From NCBI GenBank assembly GCA_031285115.1, contig JAITWU010000326.1, positions 1 through 12,432 of the forward strand: a DNA stretch of 12,432 nt, given 5' to 3'. Positions 3,172 through 12,212 of the stretch are shown piece after piece (positions within the stretch are counted from its first letter, which is position 1; each line of letters begins with the position of its first letter). Source of the stretch: Azonexus sp. (GTDB taxonomy: Bacteria; Pseudomonadota; Gammaproteobacteria; Burkholderiales; Rhodocyclaceae). The notes under the pieces were generated by a model. That model had not been told where the DNA came from, searched no databases, and saw nothing but the letters and a program-made list of their open reading frames with translations. The position numbers and the translations under genes were made by a program.

Positions 3172-3506
3172 TTTTCGCGCTGGCCGTCGGCGTCATGGCC
3201 GGTTCCGGCATTTACCTGATCCTGCGACCGCGCACCTTTCAGGTCATCATCGGCCTCTCGCTGCTCGCTTACGCCGTCAATCTGTTCATTTTTGCGACGG
3301 GCCGCCTGCGGCTCGATGCGCCACCCGTCATCAATCCAACGCTTGGCGGCAACCCGGCGCTCTACACCGACCCGCTGCCACAGGCGCTGGTGCTCACCGC
3401 CATCGTCATCGGCTTCGCCACCACCGCGCTGTTTCTCGTCGTCCTGCTCGCCGCCCGTGGTTTGAGCGGGACCGATCATGTCGATGGGCAGGAGGCGGAG
3501 GGGTGA
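3162..3506 (+). CDS. mnhC: Monovalent cation/H+ antiporter subunit C (MnhC / MrpC)
   Basis: A 114-residue, three-helix membrane protein of the NuoK-like (Oxidored_q2) family, an essential subunit of the Mrp antiporter complex. Visible family features are the N-terminal helix (MELIFALAVGVMAGSGIYLIL), the RPRTFQVIIGLSLLAYAVNL segment, the loop with PPVINP, and the third helix beginning with DPLPQALVLTAIVIGFA. The cytoplasmic tail GLSGTDHVDGQE is typical of the family end. The start is fixed by a strong ribosome-binding site GGAGGAA (3148-3154), seven bases before the ATG, inside the end of mnhAB. The gene appears complete. In canonical operons mnhD follows immediately; here it is displaced by about 3.9 kb. 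A diverged copy of its tail-coding sequence occurs at 4299-4334. Confidence 0.95.
   Translation: MELIFALAVGVMAGSGIYLILRPRTFQVIIGLSLLAYAVNLFIFATGRLRLDAPPVINPTLGGNPALYTDPLPQALVLTAIVIGFATTALFLVVLLAARGLSGTDHVDGQEAEG
3459..3494 (+). repeat. Direct repeat copy 1 (end of mnhC)
   Basis: This 36-base stretch encodes the MnhC tail and matches 4299-4334 at 28 of 36 positions without gaps, including a perfect 13-base core (3459-3471, GGTTTGAGCGGGA). Both copies are in a frame giving GLSGxDHxxGQE. The two copies flank the toxin-antitoxin pair, 840 bases apart. Confidence 0.7.
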
Positions 3507-3542
3507 TGTTGCAAGGTGCACAGCTTGCCATTCGCAGCATCC

Positions 3543-3560
3543 TGTAGAAACATTTCTACA
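3543..3560. promoter_or_regulatory. Perfect 18-base palindrome, probable operator of the toxin-antitoxin pair
   Basis: TGTAGAAACATTTCTACA has 8-base arms (TGTAGAAA/TTTCTACA) around a CA centre and ends 26 bases before the antitoxin ATG. Phd/YefM and VapB antitoxins generally autorepress by binding palindromes in their own promoter, so this is a natural operator candidate. It is AT-rich inside GC-rich surroundings. A TTGCCA at 3525-3530 could be a -35, but no convincing -10 is seen at the right distance. It lacks a following T-run, so it is not a classic terminator. Confidence 0.5.
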
Positions 3561-3586
3561 TTTCTTTGTCTCCACGAGGCGCGCTC

Positions 3587-3841
3587 ATGAGCATCACCAC
3601 CTTATCAAGCCGCGAGTTCAATCAAGGGTCCAGCGAGGCCAAGCGGGCCGCCAACAAGGGGCCGGTGTTCATCACCGACCGGGGCAAACCGGCCCATGTG
3701 CTGATGAGTTTTGCCGAATACCAGCGCCTCACCGGGCAGCGGCGCAGCATTGCCGATGCGCTCGCCATGCCGGGCGCAGCGGCAGGCGAATTTGCGCCGC
3801 CGCGCCTCAATATTGAAATTGCGCCTGCCGATTTCTCATGA
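3587..3841 (+). CDS. Antitoxin of the Phd/YefM family
   Basis: This 84-residue protein has the standard Phd/YefM antitoxin layout. The N-terminal DNA-binding part contains SSREFNQ and SSEAKRAANKGPVFITDRGKPAHVLMSFAEYQRL (about residues 7-50), nearly the family consensus. The C-terminal tail (about 60-84) is the region expected to bind and block the toxin. The ATG at 3587 is preceded by GAGG (3576-3579) with seven-base spacing; a TTG at 3566 in the same frame has no better site and is not needed. Its stop overlaps the toxin start (ATGA at 3838-3841), the usual antitoxin-first order with translational coupling. It should both neutralise the PIN toxin and repress its own promoter at the palindrome just upstream. 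Confidence 0.92.
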   Translation: MSITTLSSREFNQGSSEAKRAANKGPVFITDRGKPAHVLMSFAEYQRLTGQRRSIADALAMPGAAAGEFAPPRLNIEIAPADFS

Positions 3842-4263
3842 TGTTTATCCTCGACACCAATGTGATTTCCGAACTCCGCAAAGTGCGCCCCGGCAAGGCT
3901 GAGGCCAGAGTCGCGGCGTGGGCGGAAAGCGTCGACGCCGCCAGTCTCTTTGTTTCAGTCATCACCCTCATGGAACTGGAGCTTGGCGTGCTGGCGATCG
4001 AACGCAAGGACGCAGCCCAGGGGGCCGTGCTGCGCGCCTGGCTGGAACAGCAGGTCTTACCCGAATTTTCCACCCGCACCCTGCCGATTGATACGGCGGT
4101 GGCGCTCCGCTGCGCCCGGCTGCACATACCCGCCAGACAGAGCGAGCGCGACGCGCTCATCGCCGCCACGGCGCTGGCGCATGGCATGACGGTGGTGACG
4201 CGCAACATCGCCGATTTCCGGTCGACCGGCGTGGCGATCCTGAATCCGTGGGAGTTTGCGTGA
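3838..4263 (+). CDS. PIN-domain ribonuclease toxin, VapC/FitB-like
   Basis: A 141-residue PIN-domain protein, the toxin partner of the preceding antitoxin. VapC-type toxins are Mg2+-dependent ribonucleases that cut tRNA or rRNA when the antitoxin is lost. The four conserved acidic positions are all present: D6 (FILDTNVISEL), E46 (TLMELELG), D105 (SERDALIAATAL) and D126 (RNIADF), so the protein looks catalytically intact. The ending (TGVAILNPWEF) is typical of the FitB/StbB-like branch. Two ATGs stand in tandem at 3838 and 3841; the first overlaps the antitoxin stop and is preferred. Pairing a Phd-type antitoxin with a PIN toxin is a known mixed combination. The stop codon overlaps a GTG at 4260 that begins a 28-codon ORF. 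Confidence 0.92.
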   Translation: MMFILDTNVISELRKVRPGKAEARVAAWAESVDAASLFVSVITLMELELGVLAIERKDAAQGAVLRAWLEQQVLPEFSTRTLPIDTAVALRCARLHIPARQSERDALIAATALAHGMTVVTRNIADFRSTGVAILNPWEFA

Positions 4264-4346
4264 ACAAGAAACAGATCAAAGAGCTTGGTTCACCGCGCGG
4301 TTTGAGCGGGATAGATCACATCGGAGGACAAGAGAAAGATTCATGA
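4260..4346 (+). CDS. 28-residue coupled ORF carrying a copy of the MnhC C-terminal tail
   Basis: A GTG at 4260 overlaps the toxin stop (GTGA) and is preceded by GGAG at 4251-4254 with five-base spacing. The frame stays open for 28 codons and ends in a TGA that overlaps the ATG of the permease (ATGA at 4343-4346). Residues 14-25 are GLSGIDHIGGQE, matching the MnhC tail GLSGTDHVDGQE at 9 of 12 positions; the N-terminal half (NKKQIKELGSPR) is not MnhC-like. It could be a mnhC remnant left by the insertion, kept open by chance, or a short coupling ORF linking toxin and permease translation. I see no domain and no evidence that the peptide itself has a function. Confidence 0.4.
   Translation: MNKKQIKELGSPRGLSGIDHIGGQEKDS
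4299..4334 (+). repeat. Direct repeat copy 2 (mnhC tail remnant before the permease)
   Basis: This is the downstream partner of 3459-3494, with 28 of 36 bases identical and the 13-base core at 4299-4311 exact. Allowing a two-base gap, weaker similarity extends a few bases further left. The divergence means the duplication is old, or the copy came from a different mnhC allele. Confidence 0.7.
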
Positions 4347-5245
4347 GCGCATTACTGTTACTGTTTTTCTGCATCCTGCTTGGCGTGCTGGTGGCGCGCT
4401 TTGCCAAGCCCCCCACGGGCATGGCCCACAGCATCAACTGGTGGGTCATCAATGTCGCCCTGCCCGCCCTGGTGCTGGAGCTGATCCCCGGACTCAGGAT
4501 TGATGGACGGCTATGGTTTCCCGTGGCGGCCATGTTGCTCACTTTTTTCGGCGCCTGGCTGCTGTTCGCCCTGATCGGCAAAACCCTCGGCTGGTCGCGC
4601 GGGCGCATCGGCGCGTTGACGCTGGTATGCGGGCTGGGCAACACCTCCTTCGTCGGTTATCCGATGATGCAGGCGCTACACGGCGACGCCGGGCTGGCGG
4701 TAGCGGTGATCGCCGATCAACTCGGTACTTTTCCGCTCCTCGCCTCCGTCGGCGTCGCGGTGGCCTCCATCTACGCAGGCAAGGCGGCGGATGGGCGCAA
4801 GATTGCCCGCCGTATTCTCACTTTTCCGCCTTTTCTCGCGGCCCTGGCTGGCATCGCAGTGAACCTGCTCGGTGGCTGGCCCGCCTGGCTGGCGGCGGAA
4901 CTGCACGCCCTCGGCAGCACCTTGACGCCGCTCGCCTTGTTTTCGGTCGGCTTGCAGTTGCGCTTTCATCTGGGCCGGTCGCAATTGTCAGCGTTGTGCA
5001 TCGGCCTCTCCTGGAAGCTGGCGCTGGCCCCCCTGTTGGTCGGGCTGCTCGGCTGGACGCTGCGCATAAACGGCTTGCCGCTCACGATCAGCATCCTTGA
5101 AGCGGCAACCGGGCCGATGATTTCCGCCGCCATCCTCGCCGATGAATACAAGCTGGAACCGGCGCTGACCAACAGCATGTTGAGCATCGGCATCCTGCTC
5201 TCCCTGTTCACCCTGCCGTTGATCAATTTCTTCCTTGGTGGGTGA
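4343..5245 (+). CDS. AEC (auxin efflux carrier) family permease
   Basis: A 300-residue very hydrophobic inner-membrane protein with about ten predicted membrane helices, matching the Mem_trans/AEC transporter family in length and layout. Recognisable family segments are the first helix with FAKPPTG and INWWVINVALPALVL (about 20-50), the middle CGLGNTSFVGYPMMQALHGDAGLAVAVIADQLGTF block (about 95-130) whose broken helix is thought to line the transport path, and the late SILEAATGPMISAAILADEY segment. Bacterial members export or import small organic anions such as malate or malonate; the substrate here is unknown. The ATG at 4343 is chosen because the protein then starts directly with helix 1 and AGAGA lies seven bases upstream; a longer N-terminus in the same frame from 4256 would add charged residues atypical of the family. 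GC content resembles the host genes. Confidence 0.9.
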   Translation: MSALLLLFFCILLGVLVARFAKPPTGMAHSINWWVINVALPALVLELIPGLRIDGRLWFPVAAMLLTFFGAWLLFALIGKTLGWSRGRIGALTLVCGLGNTSFVGYPMMQALHGDAGLAVAVIADQLGTFPLLASVGVAVASIYAGKAADGRKIARRILTFPPFLAALAGIAVNLLGGWPAWLAAELHALGSTLTPLALFSVGLQLRFHLGRSQLSALCIGLSWKLALAPLLVGLLGWTLRINGLPLTISILEAATGPMISAAILADEYKLEPALTNSMLSIGILLSLFTLPLINFFLGG

Positions 5246-5420
5246 AATTTTGGCGTCAGCGCAAAAGCAGGGCGGAGGCGACTATCGTCTAAAATCGCCA
5301 GGGCATTCGGCGCGTTTTGCTTCATAGAGCGCGGCAACGACAAAAAAGGCAAAGTGACGGAGAAGATCATGGATGATTGGGGGATTGAGTCGTTGGAGTT
5401 TATTGCATCGAGGTGATGAA
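5246..5420. other. Intergenic spacer before the ATPase cassette
   Basis: These 175 bases separate the permease from the ATPase gene. A TAAAAT at 5290-5295 matches five of six -10 consensus bases, but no convincing -35 is at the right distance. One frame is open from just after the permease stop to a TGA at 5414, with no good start or domain; its last part (KIMDDWGIESLEF, about 5360-5402) could be a relic of a lost gene. No terminator hairpin with a T-run is visible after the permease. Confidence 0.5.
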
Positions 5421-6617
5421 ATGAAGATTGAATTTATCCGGCTGAAAAATTTTCGCGCCTTTCGGAATGTGACGCTGAAAAACCTTCCTGATTTCTGCGT
5501 ATTCATAGGAGCCAATGGAACCGGTAAAACCACACTGTTTTCAGCATTCGGGTTTTTGCGCGACGCCATGTCCACGAATGTCACTGCTGCGCTTGGACGG
5601 CTTGGCGGCAGCCGTGGTTTTCAGGAAGTTCGCTCCCGTAATAGCGAAGGGCCGATAGAAATTGAACTGAAAATCCGCGCGGATATTGGCCGTCCGCGAA
5701 GTAGTCTTATCACCTACGAATTGGCTATTGATGAAAGGAATGGACGCCCCATCGTCACGCGCGAAGTGCTCAAATACCGGCGCGGAAGCAGTGGACAGCC
5801 CTGGCATTTTCTGGATTTCAGCGAAGGGAAGGGCGACGCAGTAACCAATGAAATAGAATCAGTCACTGACGAGAGCCAGTTGCAGCGCGAGCATCAGGTT
5901 TTGCGTAGCCCCGATATTTTGGCGATCAAGGGATTGGCGCAGTTTGAGCGTTTTCCCGCCGCCGTTGCCTTGGGGCAGCTTATTGAAAACTGGCACTTGT
6001 CGGATTTTCATATCAACCGTGCTCGCCCGGAGCAAGAAACCGGCTATGCGGAACATTTATCCCGCGAAGGGGAAAATCTCGCGCTTGTCATTGAGTACCT
6101 GCATAAGCAACATCCAAAGATTTTTGGTCAGATTCTTGAGCGGTTGGCGCATCGCATTCCGGGAATCACAAAAGTTGAATCCAAGCCAACGGAAGAGGGG
6201 CGCATCTTGCTCAAATTTCAGGATGGTGCTTTTGAAGATCCGTTTCTGGCTCGATACGTTTCGGATGGCACGATCAAAATGCTCGCCTATCTCGTATTGT
6301 TATACGATCCAGCCCCACACCCCTTGCTGTGCATCGAAGAGCCTGAGAATCAACTCTATCCATCCTTGCTGTCGGATTTGGCCGAGGAGTTCCGCGCCTA
6401 TGCCCGACGTGGAAGTCAGGTTTTTGTCTCAACCCATTCACCAGATTTTCTGAATGCGGTTGAACTGGAAGAAGCTTTTTGGCTGGTGAAATCGGAAGGT
6501 TATACGGCGATTTGCCGTGCATCCGATGATGAGCAGTTGCGGGCGCTGATTGATGAAGGCGACAAACTCGGATACCTGTGGAAACAAGGCTTGCTCGAAG
6601 GGGCGCATCCCAAATGA
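5421..6617 (+). CDS. RecF/OLD-like ABC-type ATPase (AAA_21 family), component 1 of the candidate defence cassette
   Basis: This 398-residue soluble protein has a complete ABC-type ATPase. The N-terminus MKIEFIRLKNFRAFRNVTL is the standard start of RecF/SMC/OLD-like ATPases. Walker A is GANGTGKT (30-37, K36). A signature-like SDGTIKMLAYL precedes Walker B LLCIEEPENQLYP (302-314) with tandem catalytic-type glutamates E306 and E307. The H-loop histidine is H339 in VSTHSPDFLN. The middle (about 80-270) is the usual variable insert. No nuclease (TOPRIM) domain is fused at its C-terminus; that role could fall to the next gene, whose ATG overlaps this stop (ATGA, 6614-6617). The start at 5421 is supported by GAGG at 5410-5413, seven bases upstream. 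Base composition is visibly less GC-rich than the antiporter genes, suggesting horizontal origin. The defence role is inferred from family resemblance. Confidence 0.9.
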   Translation: MKIEFIRLKNFRAFRNVTLKNLPDFCVFIGANGTGKTTLFSAFGFLRDAMSTNVTAALGRLGGSRGFQEVRSRNSEGPIEIELKIRADIGRPRSSLITYELAIDERNGRPIVTREVLKYRRGSSGQPWHFLDFSEGKGDAVTNEIESVTDESQLQREHQVLRSPDILAIKGLAQFERFPAAVALGQLIENWHLSDFHINRARPEQETGYAEHLSREGENLALVIEYLHKQHPKIFGQILERLAHRIPGITKVESKPTEEGRILLKFQDGAFEDPFLARYVSDGTIKMLAYLVLLYDPAPHPLLCIEEPENQLYPSLLSDLAEEFRAYARRGSQVFVSTHSPDFLNAVELEEAFWLVKSEGYTAICRASDDEQLRALIDEGDKLGYLWKQGLLEGAHPK

Positions 6618-7165
6618 AGGAGCTGGTCATTCTTACCGAAGAACTCTCCGCCAAGGATTTGCTTGAAGGTTTGTTGCCGCGCTTGCTTCCTGAGGATTGG
6701 ATATTTCGTTGCATCTCATACGAGGGCAAGCAGGATCTCGAAAAACGGATGGGATTTGTGTTGCGCGCCTGGAAAAATCCAGAGGCGCGTTTTGTTGTTC
6801 TGCGTGATCAGGATTCAGGCGATTGCCGAACCATCAAGGCCGGTTTGCTCCAGCGTTGCCGTGATGCAGGGCAACCGGATGCGCTTATCCGCATTGCCTG
6901 CCGGGAGTTGGAGGCTTGGGTTCTCGGCGATTTAATCGCATTTTCAGAGGAATTTTCTGCGCCAGCCGCAGGCAAAGCCGTTGGGAAAGCCAAGTTTCGC
7001 AACCCCGATGCGCTGGGCAGCGCCGTCGCCGAACTACGGAAATTTGTGCCGGGCTACCAGAAACGTGATGGCGGTCGGCGGATGGGGAAACGGCTTGACC
7101 CCAAGCGAAATATGTCACCCAGCTTTCGCACATTTTGCGACGGGATACTCAGGATCGCTGCATGA
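6614..7165 (+). CDS. DUF4276-family TOPRIM-like protein, component 2 of the candidate defence cassette
   Basis: A 183-residue protein that I recognise as DUF4276 family by its conserved pattern: N-terminal ELVILTEE followed by a helix (SAKDLLEGLLPRLLP), then YEGKQDLEKR (about 36-45), RFVVLRDQDSGDCR (59-72), RIACRELEAWVLGD (93-106) and KFRNPDALGS. The acidic residues E9/E10 near strand 1 and the D65-x-D67 pair resemble a TOPRIM metal site, the fold used by OLD-family nucleases and topoisomerases. E98 and E100 are further conserved acids. The gene overlaps its ATPase partner by ATGA on the 5' side and the 87-residue ORF by ATGA on the 3' side. DUF4276 genes commonly sit beside such ATPases. A metal-dependent nuclease or effector activity is plausible but unproven. 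Confidence 0.86.
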   Translation: MKELVILTEELSAKDLLEGLLPRLLPEDWIFRCISYEGKQDLEKRMGFVLRAWKNPEARFVVLRDQDSGDCRTIKAGLLQRCRDAGQPDALIRIACRELEAWVLGDLIAFSEEFSAPAAGKAVGKAKFRNPDALGSAVAELRKFVPGYQKRDGGRRMGKRLDPKRNMSPSFRTFCDGILRIAA

Positions 7166-7425
7166 CCGCCCCCCAATCCCTTATCGCCAACTTCCCTTTC
7201 GAGCCGCCGCGCTGGCATTGTCCAGAATATCAAGGTAGCCTGAAATTGACCGAAGGCTGCCGTCCGGCGGGTTATGAAAGTTTCGATAGCGGCCACAACA
7301 CCCGCCGCGCCGCGCTGGATGCGTGGGCGAAGGCTGTCAATCGGCAGGGTGGCTTTGGTGTTTGGTGTTGTGATGTAGCGTTTGCGCCGGAGCAGATTCA
7401 AGACATTCTGGCGACGCATGGCTGA
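7162..7425 (+). CDS. Uncharacterised 87-residue protein, third member of the ATPase/DUF4276 cassette
   Basis: I do not recognise this family. The ATG overlaps the DUF4276 stop (ATGA, 7162-7165), which argues for a real, translationally coupled gene. The protein is soluble, without signal peptide or membrane helix. It is rich in aromatic residues and contains cysteines and histidines (PRWHCPEY near 16-23, TEGC near 30-33, VWCCD near 68-72) that could bind a metal or only stabilise a fold. It might be a regulatory or sensor subunit of the cassette, an inhibitor that keeps it silent, or a truncated remnant of a longer gene cut when the cassette landed next to mnhD. It ends 16 bases before the chosen mnhD start. 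Confidence 0.6.
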   Translation: MTAPQSLIANFPFEPPRWHCPEYQGSLKLTEGCRPAGYESFDSGHNTRRAALDAWAKAVNRQGGFGVWCCDVAFAPEQIQDILATHG

Positions 7426-7441
7426 ATACGGCGTTAACCCC

Positions 7442-9055
7442 ATGCCCCTGCTCCACCACCTTCCCATCCTGCCCATTCTCATCCCGATGTTGACCGGGAC
7501 TTTGCTGCTGTTTTCCAGCGACAGCCGCCACGGGCCGCGCATTGCGCTGTCGCTTTTTTCCGTGCTCTTGCAACTGGCGGCGGCGGGGGCGTTGCTGGCG
7601 GCGGCGGGGGGCTGGCTGGGGATGCCGTGGCCGGGGAGCATTAGCGTTTATGCGCTGGGCGACTGGGCGCCGCCGTTTGGCATTGCGCTCGTCGCCGACC
7701 GGCTGGCGGCGGTGATGTTGGCGCTTACCGCCACGCTGGGTCTGGCGGCGCTCGTCTATTCGATTGCCCGCTGGGAAAAAGCGGGGGTGCATTTTCTGCC
7801 GTTGTTCCAGTTTTTGTTGATGGGTTTGAACGGCACGTTTTTAACCGGCGACCTCTTTAATCTCTTCGTTTTTTTCGAGGTCATGCTGGCCGCCTCTTAC
7901 GGTCTGGCGCTGCATGGCTCGGGCGGGCCACGGGTGCGCGCCGGGCTGCATTACATTGTCGTCAATCTGCTCGCTTCGCTTCTGTTTCTCGTCGCCGCCG
8001 CCTTGATGTATGGCGTCACCGGCACGTTGAATCTGGCTGAATTGCCGCCGCGCATCGCCATGCTCGATGCCGCTGACCGCCAGTTGTTCCATGCCGCCGC
8101 CGCGCTTCTGGGTGTTGTTTTTCTCATCAAGGCCGCTGCCTGGCCGCTCAATTTCTGGCTGCCGGCAGCCTATGGCAATGCCGTGCCGCCGGTTGGAGCC
8201 ATTTTCGCCATTTTGACCAAGGTTGGCGTTTATGCCCTGTTGCGGCTGGGCGTGCTGTTTCAGGAAAGCGGCGTCGCGCCGCCGCCGTTTGGCGGCGACT
8301 GGGTGTTTTACTGCGGTCTGGTGACGATGGCGGCTGGCACGCTAGGCGTCTTGCAGGCGCAAAAGCTCGATCGGCTGGCGGCGTTTCTGGTCGTCGTCTC
8401 TTCCGGCACTTTGCTCACGTCCTTTGGTTTTACCGGCACGCTGCTGACCGGCCCGGCCATTTATTATCTGGTCAGTTCCGTGCTCGGCAGCGGGGCGTTT
8501 TTCATGCTCGTTGAAATGGCCGAGCGCAATCGCCAGCAGGGCGCGGATTTTCTCGCCATCAGCCAGGAGGCTTTCGGTGTCGAAGCGGCGCATCACGATT
8601 CGGAACATCCGGACGAAATGGTCGGCGTCGCCATTCCGGCGGCGATGGTTTTTCTCGGCCTCGCCTTTGTCGCCTGCGTCTTGCTGCTGACGGGACTGCC
8701 GCCGCTATCGGGCTTTGTCGGCAAATTCGCCCTCCTCGGCGCTTCGCTCGCTTCGCTGCCGCAGGCTTCCGTGCTCCATGTCGGGCTGTATATCAGCGCC
8801 CTGGTGCTGTCCGGCATGGCTGGCTTGATTGCCATGTCGCGCCTCGGCATCCGCGTTTTCTGGGATATGGAGCGCTTGGCGCCGCATCTGCAATGGCTCG
8901 AAGCCGGGCCGGTCGCGGCGCTCTTGCTGCTCTGCCTGTGGCTGGCGCTCGCGCCGGAGGCGATGATGGCCTACGCCGCCGCCGCTTCCGATTCGCTCTA
9001 CGACGCGGGGGCTTATATCCGCGCCGTCATGCCCCAGACGCCGCTAACGCCATGA
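7442..9055 (+). CDS. mnhD: Monovalent cation/H+ antiporter subunit D (MnhD / MrpD)
   Basis: A 537-residue NuoM/NuoN-type membrane subunit (Proton_antipo_M) and one of the two large ion-translocating subunits of the Mrp complex. Family marks, numbered from the ATG at 7442, are the N-terminus HLPILPILIPMLTG, E146 in LFVFFEVMLAASYGLALHG, K230 in FLIKAAAWPLNFWLP, K260 in AILTKVGVYALLRLG, and the late GLPPLSGFVGKFALL block. An upstream in-frame ATG at 7418 would add eight residues and overlap the preceding small gene; neither start has a clear ribosome-binding site, and 7442 gives the family-like N-terminus. The gene is intact although cut off from mnhC by about 3.9 kb of inserted genes, so it may now depend on readthrough from, or promoters in, the inserted region. 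Its stop overlaps mnhE (ATGA). Confidence 0.95.
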   Translation: MPLLHHLPILPILIPMLTGTLLLFSSDSRHGPRIALSLFSVLLQLAAAGALLAAAGGWLGMPWPGSISVYALGDWAPPFGIALVADRLAAVMLALTATLGLAALVYSIARWEKAGVHFLPLFQFLLMGLNGTFLTGDLFNLFVFFEVMLAASYGLALHGSGGPRVRAGLHYIVVNLLASLLFLVAAALMYGVTGTLNLAELPPRIAMLDAADRQLFHAAAALLGVVFLIKAAAWPLNFWLPAAYGNAVPPVGAIFAILTKVGVYALLRLGVLFQESGVAPPPFGGDWVFYCGLVTMAAGTLGVLQAQKLDRLAAFLVVVSSGTLLTSFGFTGTLLTGPAIYYLVSSVLGSGAFFMLVEMAERNRQQGADFLAISQEAFGVEAAHHDSEHPDEMVGVAIPAAMVFLGLAFVACVLLLTGLPPLSGFVGKFALLGASLASLPQASVLHVGLYISALVLSGMAGLIAMSRLGIRVFWDMERLAPHLQWLEAGPVAALLLLCLWLALAPEAMMAYAAAASDSLYDAGAYIRAVMPQTPLTP

Positions 9056-9555
9056 TCCGAAACCGGAAACTGCCGCTCATGGAAATCACGCTGCTCGCCG
9101 TGTGGCTGGTGGTCAATGAGTCGCTGGCCCTGCACCAGTGGCTGCTCGGCGCGCTGTTTGCGCTGCTGGCGGGACGGCTGGCGCGGGCGCTGCGCCCGCA
9201 TGAGGCGAGGCCGCGCCGCCTCGATGTGGCGCTCCTCTTGTGCTGGCATGTCTTCTGCGATGTGGTGCGCTCGAACATCGCGGTCGGCCAGATCATCCTC
9301 GGCGCAACAAGGCAGCAGCCGAAAGTCGGCTTCATGGAAATTCCGCTCGATTTACGCGACCCGCACGGACTGGCGGCGCTCTCCATCATCATCACCGCCA
9401 CGCCCGGCACCGTTTTCGCGGGCCTTGACCCGGCCACGAATGTACTGACCCTGCACGTCCTCGATTTGCAGGACGAAGCCACCTGGCTGCGCACCATCAA
9501 AGACCGCTACGAACGCCCGCTGATGGAAATTTTCAACGATGAAGCGTCTGGCTGA
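9052..9555 (+). CDS. mnhE: Monovalent cation/H+ antiporter subunit E (MnhE / MrpE)
   Basis: A 167-residue member of the MnhE family with two N-terminal membrane helices ([32 protein letters not shown]) followed by a cytoplasmic domain. Conserved stretches include [17 protein letters not shown] (about 65-81), [27 protein letters not shown] (about 92-118) and YERPLMEIF near the end. It is needed for assembly or stability of the antiporter. The ATG overlaps the mnhD stop (ATGA at 9052-9055); a second in-frame ATG at 9079 would shorten it by nine residues. The gene is complete. In the standard order mnhF would start at or just after its stop, but 36 bases later hsdM begins instead. Confidence 0.94.
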
Positions 9556-9591
9556 CAGCGACCTATTCACCCGGCAAACAGGAATGACACC

Positions 9592-11138
<1,547 letters not shown>

Positions 11139-11142
<4 letters not shown>

Positions 11143-12212
11143 CCCGCAAGAAGCGTCCCACAAGAAAGGAAATAACTATCGCCAGTTCCTCGGCGGCGGA
11201 ATATCTGACCTTTATCGCAGCAACAGGCGATGATCCGCAATCGGTCGAAATGCGTTATCAAGACGAGAATATCTGGCTGACGCAGAAGATGATGGCAACG
11301 CTTTACGGGATTACGGTTCCGGCCATCAATCAGCACCTCAAACGGATTTTTGAAGATAGCGAACTCGAAACAGGCGCAGTTATTAAGCAATACTTAATAA
11401 CTGCCGATGACGGGAAAACCTACACCGTCAACCACTACAACCTGCAAGCCATCATCGCCGTTGGCTTCAAGATCAACAACGAACGTGCGGTGCGTTTCCG
11501 CAAATGGGCGGGGCAGATTGTCAAGGACTACACCATCCAAGGCTGGACGATGGATGTGGAGCGGCTCAAAAAAGGTCACAAATTCACCAACGAATTCTTT
11601 GACCGGCAACTGGAATACATCCGTGAAATTCGCCTGTCGGAGCGAAAGTTCTACCAGAAAGTCACGGATTTATATGCCACCGCCTTCGACTACGACGCCA
11701 GCGCCCAGACCACGCGGGATTTCTTCGCGCTGGTGCAAAACAAAATGCACTGGGCTGTACATCGTCACACCGCCGCCGAAGTCATCGTTGCGCGCGCCGA
11801 TGCCAACAAAAATCACATGGGGCTGACGCATTGGGAAGCCGCGCCCGGCGGCAAGATCGTCAAGTCCGACGTATCCGTAGCCAAAAATTATTTGAACGCG
11901 CAAGAAATGGACTATCTGGAGCGGATCGTCTCCCTCTATCTGGATTTTGGCGAGTTTCAGTCCATGCGCAAAATTCCCATGTCCATGCAGGATTGGGCAC
12001 AACGACTCGATGGCTTCCTGGAGTTTAACGGTAACGAAATCCTGACCGGCCCCAGCAAAATTTCCCACGAACAAGCCAAACTCCACGCCGAAACCGAGTT
12101 TGAGAAATACCGCATCGTGCAAGATCGCTTGTTCGAGAGCGATTTTGACCGCTTCATGGCACTGGAGGCGGAAATCACACAACTCGAACCGAAGGATGGG
12201 AAACAACCATGA
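11139..12212 (+). CDS. RhuM-family protein (virulence protein RhuM-like) in the type I R-M operon
   Basis: A 357-residue soluble protein matching the RhuM family. Recognisable segments are [40 protein letters not shown] (about 32-72), which looks like a winged-helix or HTH-type module, then [25 protein letters not shown] (about 98-122), [36 protein letters not shown], and the C-terminal [23 protein letters not shown]. The name comes from a Salmonella pathogenicity island gene; the biochemical function is unknown. Such genes are recurrent cargo between hsdM and hsdS, and might act in regulation or as part of a toxin-like or anti-restriction control device. It overlaps hsdM and the next gene by ATGA junctions, so it belongs to the same translational unit. 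Confidence 0.9.

Follow-up and report, generated by a model that had tools for sequence, protein, structure and literature searches.

An intact HEC-01 ATPase-DUF4276 gene pair between apparent relics of a type III-like restriction-modification system in Azonexus sp.

Which of the three overlapping genes at positions 5,421 to 7,425 of a 12,432-nucleotide stretch of Azonexus sp. DNA (the whole stretch is called the window below) make up a defence cassette, and what stood around them before? The first-pass annotation had read all three as a split OLD-like system, with an ATPase, a DUF4276 effector and possibly an 87-residue third part. The three open reading frames (ORFs) do lie at 5421-6617, 6614-7165 and 7162-7425, and both gene overlaps read ATGA in the sequence. 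Each frame also offers an upstream start codon: an ATG at 5373 for the ATPase, whose 398 residues are counted from the ATG at 5421, a GTG at 6578 for the DUF4276 gene and a TTG at 7135 for the small ORF. Our analysis goes beyond that annotation in two respects, a methyltransferase stub just upstream of the pair and an origin for the third ORF. The features are as follows.

5348..5416, forward strand: putative C-terminal stub of a type III-like DNA methyltransferase gene (mod), with its TGA at 5414-5416 and a putative 5' limit
5421..6617, forward strand: OLD/AAA_21-type ABC ATPase of HEC-01, 398 amino acids (PADLOC PDLC04144, 1e-198; Pfam AAA_21, 4.4e-33)
6614..7165, forward strand: DUF4276 protein of HEC-01 with a predicted OLD-type TOPRIM fold, 183 amino acids (PADLOC PDLC04143, 4.5e-66; PF14103, 1.6e-12)
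7162..7425, forward strand: 87-codon ORF, an apparent internally deleted relic of a BPTD_3080-type restriction helicase gene (res)
7177..7311, forward strand: part of the relic from the helicase N-terminus, ORF residues 6-50 (HMM of 10 N-termini, i-E 3.2e-11)
7300..7419, forward strand: part of the relic from the helicase C-terminus, ORF residues 47-86 (HMM of 10 C-termini, i-E 1.3e-20)

The first two genes match models of one candidate system over almost their whole length. The ATPase matches PDLC04144 across positions 1-395 of 395, and the adjacent DUF4276 protein matches the partner model PDLC04143 across positions 1-184 of 190. The residues singled out by the earlier annotation are present where it placed them, namely K36, E306/E307 and H339 in the ATPase and E9/E10 with the D65-x-D67 pair in the DUF4276 protein, and the ATPase carries in addition SDGT at 281-284. 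We take K36 to be the Walker A lysine, E306-E307 the Walker B/acid residues, H339 the His-switch (H-loop) and SDGT a signature-like motif. The AlphaFold model of the ATPase has a pLDDT of 88.5. When the two proteins were compared with 79 other rows (L045 and L062 omitted; L057 and L120 are one contig), the window was found to keep every near-invariant column, defined as at least 97% alike, 105/105 in the ATPase and 28/28 in the DUF4276 protein. The pN between the window and related loci was 0.11-0.17 for the ATPase and 0.21-0.31 for DUF4276; with synonymous sites at or close to saturation (pS 0.74-0.88 over eight comparisons involving four loci), we give pN only and no dN/dS. Judged by sequence, the window holds an intact two-gene HEC-01 module, ATPase plus DUF4276.

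We also analyzed the conservation of the pair across genomes. A scan of genome contigs with a DUF4276 alignment gave 357 confirmed matches, and the best 80 of the 357 loci were analysed. In 79 of these 80 the ATPase lies directly upstream of DUF4276, which bears out the annotation's expectation of a conserved gene pair; in the exception, L045, the contig starts 16 bases before the DUF4276 match. The ATPase is full-length and without a stop in 78/80 (the others, L045 and L062, lie at the end of a contig or close to it). All 80 DUF4276 matches are full-length, in a set gathered by DUF4276, so that an intact DUF4276 beside broken neighbours is partly selected for and survival of the ATPase is not. 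The profile matches, the conserved columns and the adjacency in 79 loci together suggest that the pair is more than chance. No close relatives were seen in viral contigs in one scan.

By its model matches the pair is not new, being already in PADLOC-DB 2.0.0 as candidate HEC-01, although the labels HEC-01A and HEC-01B swap between the ATPase and the DUF4276 protein in different models of that database. HEC stands for Hma-embedded candidate (PMC10855318, PMC12111858). Relatives of the window pair in L034 and L091 do adjoin Hma-type genes (DUF1156 and DUF499), whereas the genes enclosing the window pair are type III-like mod and res relics. HEC-01 is one of the systems listed for Desulfovibrio piger strains (PMC12724379); HEC-06 was reported to be active (PMC12988326), and HEC-04, an ATPase-TOPRIM fusion, to be active against T4 and T5 (PMC12111858). 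The literature passages searched report no phage or nuclease activity of HEC-01, and the term DUF4276 occurs in none of 5.39 million papers.

The DUF4276 protein was modelled by AlphaFold with a pLDDT of 94.6, and the nearest folds to the model are OLD TOPRIM domains (6nk8, 6njv, 6njw, 6njx and 6p74), with a best Foldseek E of only 2.9e-3 and an unrelated protein next at 7.1e-3. At the sequence level, its profile showed no link to solved TOPRIM chains; the sole match up to E 1 was a designed protein (0.32). The TOPRIM motif consists of a glutamate after strand 1 and a DxD after strand 3. In the model, the predicted strands at 2-8 and 58-65 directly precede E9/E10 and D65/D67, and these four acids are invariant across 34 rows and near-invariant across 79, so that both the fold and the placing of the acids behind strands 1 and 3 agree with an OLD-type TOPRIM domain. 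The TOPRIM fold on which the annotation's split OLD-like reading had depended is thus present in the predicted structure, and DUF4276 gains a predicted TOPRIM nuclease identity.

How does the pair relate to known ATPase-TOPRIM systems? PARIS likewise encodes an OLD-type ATPase and a TOPRIM effector as separate genes, its effector AriB being a DUF4435 protein. The AriA profile matches the window ATPase at 8.7e-32, and a search with the ATPase reached AriA chains at 9e-4. However, none of the AriB models is matched by the window effector, its 12 PADLOC families at E up to 1 are all HEC-01 models, and the ATPase fits HEC-01 far better than PARIS. In PARIS itself AriB is a TOPRIM tRNase that is released through AriA upon Ocr (PMC12409363, PMC12839542). 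OLD nucleases and Gabija GajA also combine an ABC ATPase with a TOPRIM domain; the DUF4276 model is nearest to the OLD TOPRIM domains, and a profile of the ATPase matched the OLD nuclease of Retron-Eco8 (4.2e-7, residues 1-50). Unlike these fused proteins, the window has two genes, and the ORF directly downstream is a putative BPTD_3080-type relic, not a GajB-type helicase.

Then, where does the third ORF come from? Among about 5.8 billion proteins, of which only those 0.55 to 1.75 times the query length were covered, no homologue of the same size was found, the sole match being the window's own protein, and the small ORF was rejected as a conserved protein. Its residues 45-85 match positions 928-968 of the 970 in NCBIfam NF046055 (BPTD_3080 restriction endonuclease) at E 9.5e-8, with 30 bits vs a full-length cut-off of 800. 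BLASTP against five helicases (L007-L011, 928-988 amino acids) aligned ORF residues up to 1-49 with the helicase N-terminus and up to 42-87 with the C-terminal region. The HMMs of the two helicase ends, built from the ten helicases of the four-gene operons described below, overlap on the ORF at residues 47-50, the deletion joint. Judged by length, about 840 codons are missing, and the deletion is in frame. The start of the ORF also resembles a helicase start, the first ~10 bases around the overlap being identical in L056. The small third gene is by these matches a leftover of a restriction helicase and not a new part, and we have dropped it as a component of the cassette. That it works as a third component, a regulator or antitoxin made from re-used helicase ends, is very improbable: the ORF is open, begins in the ATGA overlap with DUF4276 and joins its two parts in frame, but it has no relative of the same size, its homology is confined to the two end regions of a ~930-residue protein, and no such helicase remnant was found beside the 70 other loci, among which L012, L020 and L057 have short downstream sequence.

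The origin of this leftover is indicated by 10 of the 80 loci (L015-L019, L022, L024, L031, L056 and L069), in which the order is methyltransferase-ATPase-DUF4276-helicase. The helicase is full-length and without a stop in all ten. A single full-length methyltransferase match is present in L015, L017, L056 and L069, and two matches in one frame in L031; in L024 the first ~115 residues are unmatched, and in L016, L019 and L022 the gene is cut by the end of the contig. In L018 (5812-8803) the methyltransferase lies in two frames, perhaps through a frameshift, and the pair and helicase there are open. In nine of these loci, those with the tail read, the methyltransferase stops 3-4 bases before the ATPase start.

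On the upstream side of the window pair, 4 bases separate the end of the mod stub (5416) from the ATPase start. The stub matches an HMM of 10 methyltransferase tails at i-E 2.1e-4 over 5348-5404; at the 70 other loci, the best value of this HMM in forward frames of the flanks was 0.66. Its Smith-Waterman scores against the ten tails were 45-58, each above the best of 1000 shuffles, with a thin margin for L022 (52 vs 50) and L024 (54 vs 50). The tail match alone is modest evidence, and the putative stub becomes convincing through its position and through the helicase relic that follows the pair. We searched for remnants of the outer genes in forward frames up to 1500 bases upstream and 3600 bases downstream, six of the 80 loci being short-flanked on one side. 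Matches to the mod tail, the res N-end and the res C-end at i-E <0.02 were found solely in the ten four-gene loci and the window; the other 70 loci had none at that level, their best values being 0.66 and 0.36. From these matches we conclude that mod and res of a type III-like system, of BPTD_3080 type, once enclosed the pair, and that both outer genes have apparently collapsed, mod to a C-terminal stub and res to the in-frame 87-codon remnant. The window thus has neither the intact methyltransferase nor the intact helicase of such a system.

In a tree of 81 rows, made quickly and without bootstrap and so unable to tell gain from loss, the ten four-gene loci and the window fall within one 33-row clade (SH-aLRT 100). 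The row nearest to the window is a pair from Dokdonella that lacks both mod and res, and neither gene was found beside the window's nearest tree relatives L014, L012 and L013, L012 having only 113 bases downstream. Methyltransferase-helicase operons without the pair exist as well (L007, L008 and L010).

These observations raise the question of whether the pair is itself a dying remnant without function in this genome. In favour, both of its neighbours are relics and the insert lies inside an mrp operon; the pair genes, however, are intact, with all 105 and 28 near-invariant columns kept, and elsewhere the pair stands without mod/res neighbours in 70/80 loci and nevertheless has a full-length DUF4276 in every locus and a full-length ATPase in all but two. 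We consider decay of the pair unlikely. Because the pair persists without mod and res in the window and in these 70 loci, it probably works alone or with systems in trans.

We next looked at the place before the helicase by a search anchored on the helicase, which avoids the choice of loci by DUF4276. Among 369 genomes of the class, 8 matched at 1e-150 (49-76% identity). The helicase is preceded by diverged HEC-01 pairs in L132 and L136, by PD-T4-4-like ATPases in L131 and L133 (the partner match being weak in L133) and directly by the methyltransferase in L130; the ORFs before it in L134 and L135 gave no match to the pair or methyltransferase queries. In L129 (2918-4217) the mod-res gap is filled by a BrnT toxin, a BrnA antitoxin and a PIN-domain protein, and in L011 another ATPase and a 232-residue protein occupy the gap. 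These varied contents suggest that the place takes exchangeable modules.

Other host systems around the pair were also seen. In L088 (4432-13080) the pair has an Eco57I-type methyltransferase on one side and a PglZ protein on the other, an arrangement that suggests embedding in a BREX-like locus. In L036 (7960-13187) and L039 (6213-11010) the pair is intact, preceded by a shortened HmaB and followed by an HmaC with large gaps; the two names are based on DUF1156 and DUF499 in Pfam and on HmaB and HmaC matches by PADLOC in a pooled scan. Measured against L091, to which L034 is full-length, HmaB residues 4-154 (L036) and 4-159 (L039) of 981 remain, with a weak 947-978 end in L039. The HmaC of L039 is in one open frame; that of L036 is in pieces with a stop, and another ORF lies between it and the pair. 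L036 and L039 are sister rows, so the Hma decay is perhaps one or two events, and they are perhaps a second lineage in which the host system decayed around the pair.

The first-pass annotation placed the cassette among other defence and addiction genes, and this holds in part. A Phd-like antitoxin and a PIN-domain (VapC-like) toxin directly follow mrpC in the window, and then an auxin-efflux-carrier family transporter (3566-5245); after mrpE, at 9555-12212, lie an HsdM gene (TIGR00497) and a gene for a RhuM-like protein, named by eye, that matches PADLOC candidate PDC-S05 at 4.1e-143. The immediate frame, however, is the mrp antiporter operon, and in other genomes ordinary families occur next to the pair as well. 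In pooled neighbours (84 proteins each) PADLOC families numbered 226 near vs 116 far, the proteins behind each family not being reported. The near set took 84 of 128 ORFs, all from loci without the four-gene order, and left out L014:10679-15346, L058:5016-8627 and 42 ORFs after L068; the far set took 84 of 85, leaving out L091:18744-19484. As a sign of defence enrichment this difference is weak evidence, and in the Pfam scan of the near set many ordinary families were among the 25 of 121 listed.

The insert splits the mrp operon between mrpC and mrpD (window 3506-7442). An mrpD search at 1e-220 matched 9 of 76 genomes of the genus: the window's own, six in which mrpC and mrpD are adjacent (G065, G057, G047, G010, G008 and G022), G013, and G004, whose contig ends at this point. 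G013, the closest relative, is split at the same point by different cargo (contig C18, 13416-23429; L119, L111), made up of a gene that by eye encodes an aldo/keto reductase, a pair assigned by PADLOC to PDC-M23, and mod and res genes of type III. On this comparison the mrpC-mrpD junction appears to be a hotspot for the insertion of defence genes. The GC content of the ATPase (51%) and DUF4276 (55%) genes is lower than that of mrpAB (65%) and mrpD (63%), which fits a foreign origin. After mrpE, G013 continues with an apparent mrpF (by eye), and the window's difference from it there makes a second rearrangement point likely. Helicase matches at 1e-20 occur in 4 of the 76 genus genomes (36-40% identity). 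On another contig of the window's own genome (G000, C235, 6-1211; L137) there is a distant helicase relative of ~35-40% identity, cut by the contig end.

Taken together, we put at roughly 0.68 the reading that the window holds an intact HEC-01 pair that has outlived its collapsed mod/res system and acts as an ATPase-controlled TOPRIM nuclease, probably autonomously or in trans. The ATPase would hold the nuclease silent and would sense a phage signal, perhaps, by analogy with PrrC and PARIS, an inhibitor of the neighbouring modification system. Once released, the nuclease would cut nucleic acid and stop the infection at the cell's cost.

PrrC is silenced by the linked restriction-modification (R-M) enzyme EcoprrI and freed by a phage anti-restriction peptide; one RloC gene adjoins an hsdR relic, and it has been proposed that a copy in trans took over the role of this relic (PMC2610378). 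Both are ATPase-linked toxic nucleases in R-M loci, and RloC beside the hsdR relic is by analogy the nearest precedent for the window, although these proteins differ from the window pair in belonging to another nuclease family, in being encoded by one gene and in being tied to type I R-M. OLD-ATPase/TOPRIM modules embedded in BREX and BREX-related (Hma) systems have been described as backup effectors (PMC12839542). It is possible, though doubtful, that the pair guards a restriction system, staying silent as long as that system works, being freed upon its inhibition by a phage and now acting in trans on another system of the genome. Relatives of the pair are embedded in type III-like, Hma-type and PglZ-containing loci, the RloC case has a second hsd locus elsewhere (PMC2610378), and the window's HsdM gene and the distant helicase fragment of the same genome could be counted in favour. 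The 70 relatives without mod/res genes speak against such a guard, as does a methyltransferase search of the window's own genome, which gave no match but covered a genome only 83% complete and had no positive control. Could the pair instead be a device of DNA metabolism? Cran1, an archaeal OLD-family ATPase, has a cell-cycle role and is apparently not a defence protein (PMC12796447), and ordinary genes occur among the pair's neighbours. But the pair is patchy (2 of 41 genomes of the genus and order, the window's own included), it is embedded inside modification systems, and defence was reported for the related candidate HEC-04 (PMC12111858); we consider a role in DNA metabolism quite unlikely.

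The reading of an ATPase-controlled nuclease pair that outlived its host system removes a false third component from the proposed cassette. As a tentative extension, OLD-ATPase/TOPRIM guards might pass through a cycle, in which they lodge in the mod-res gaps of type III-like, Hma-type and BREX-like systems, outlive them and continue free; if this is true, its decay stage would be what is seen in the window (type III-like) and in two Chromatiaceae loci (Hma). Whether an embedded guard depends on its enclosing system can now be tested, with the operons of L015, L017, L056 and L069 as material. For the family, the locus suggests that a defence pair embedded in a restriction system can survive the decay of that system.
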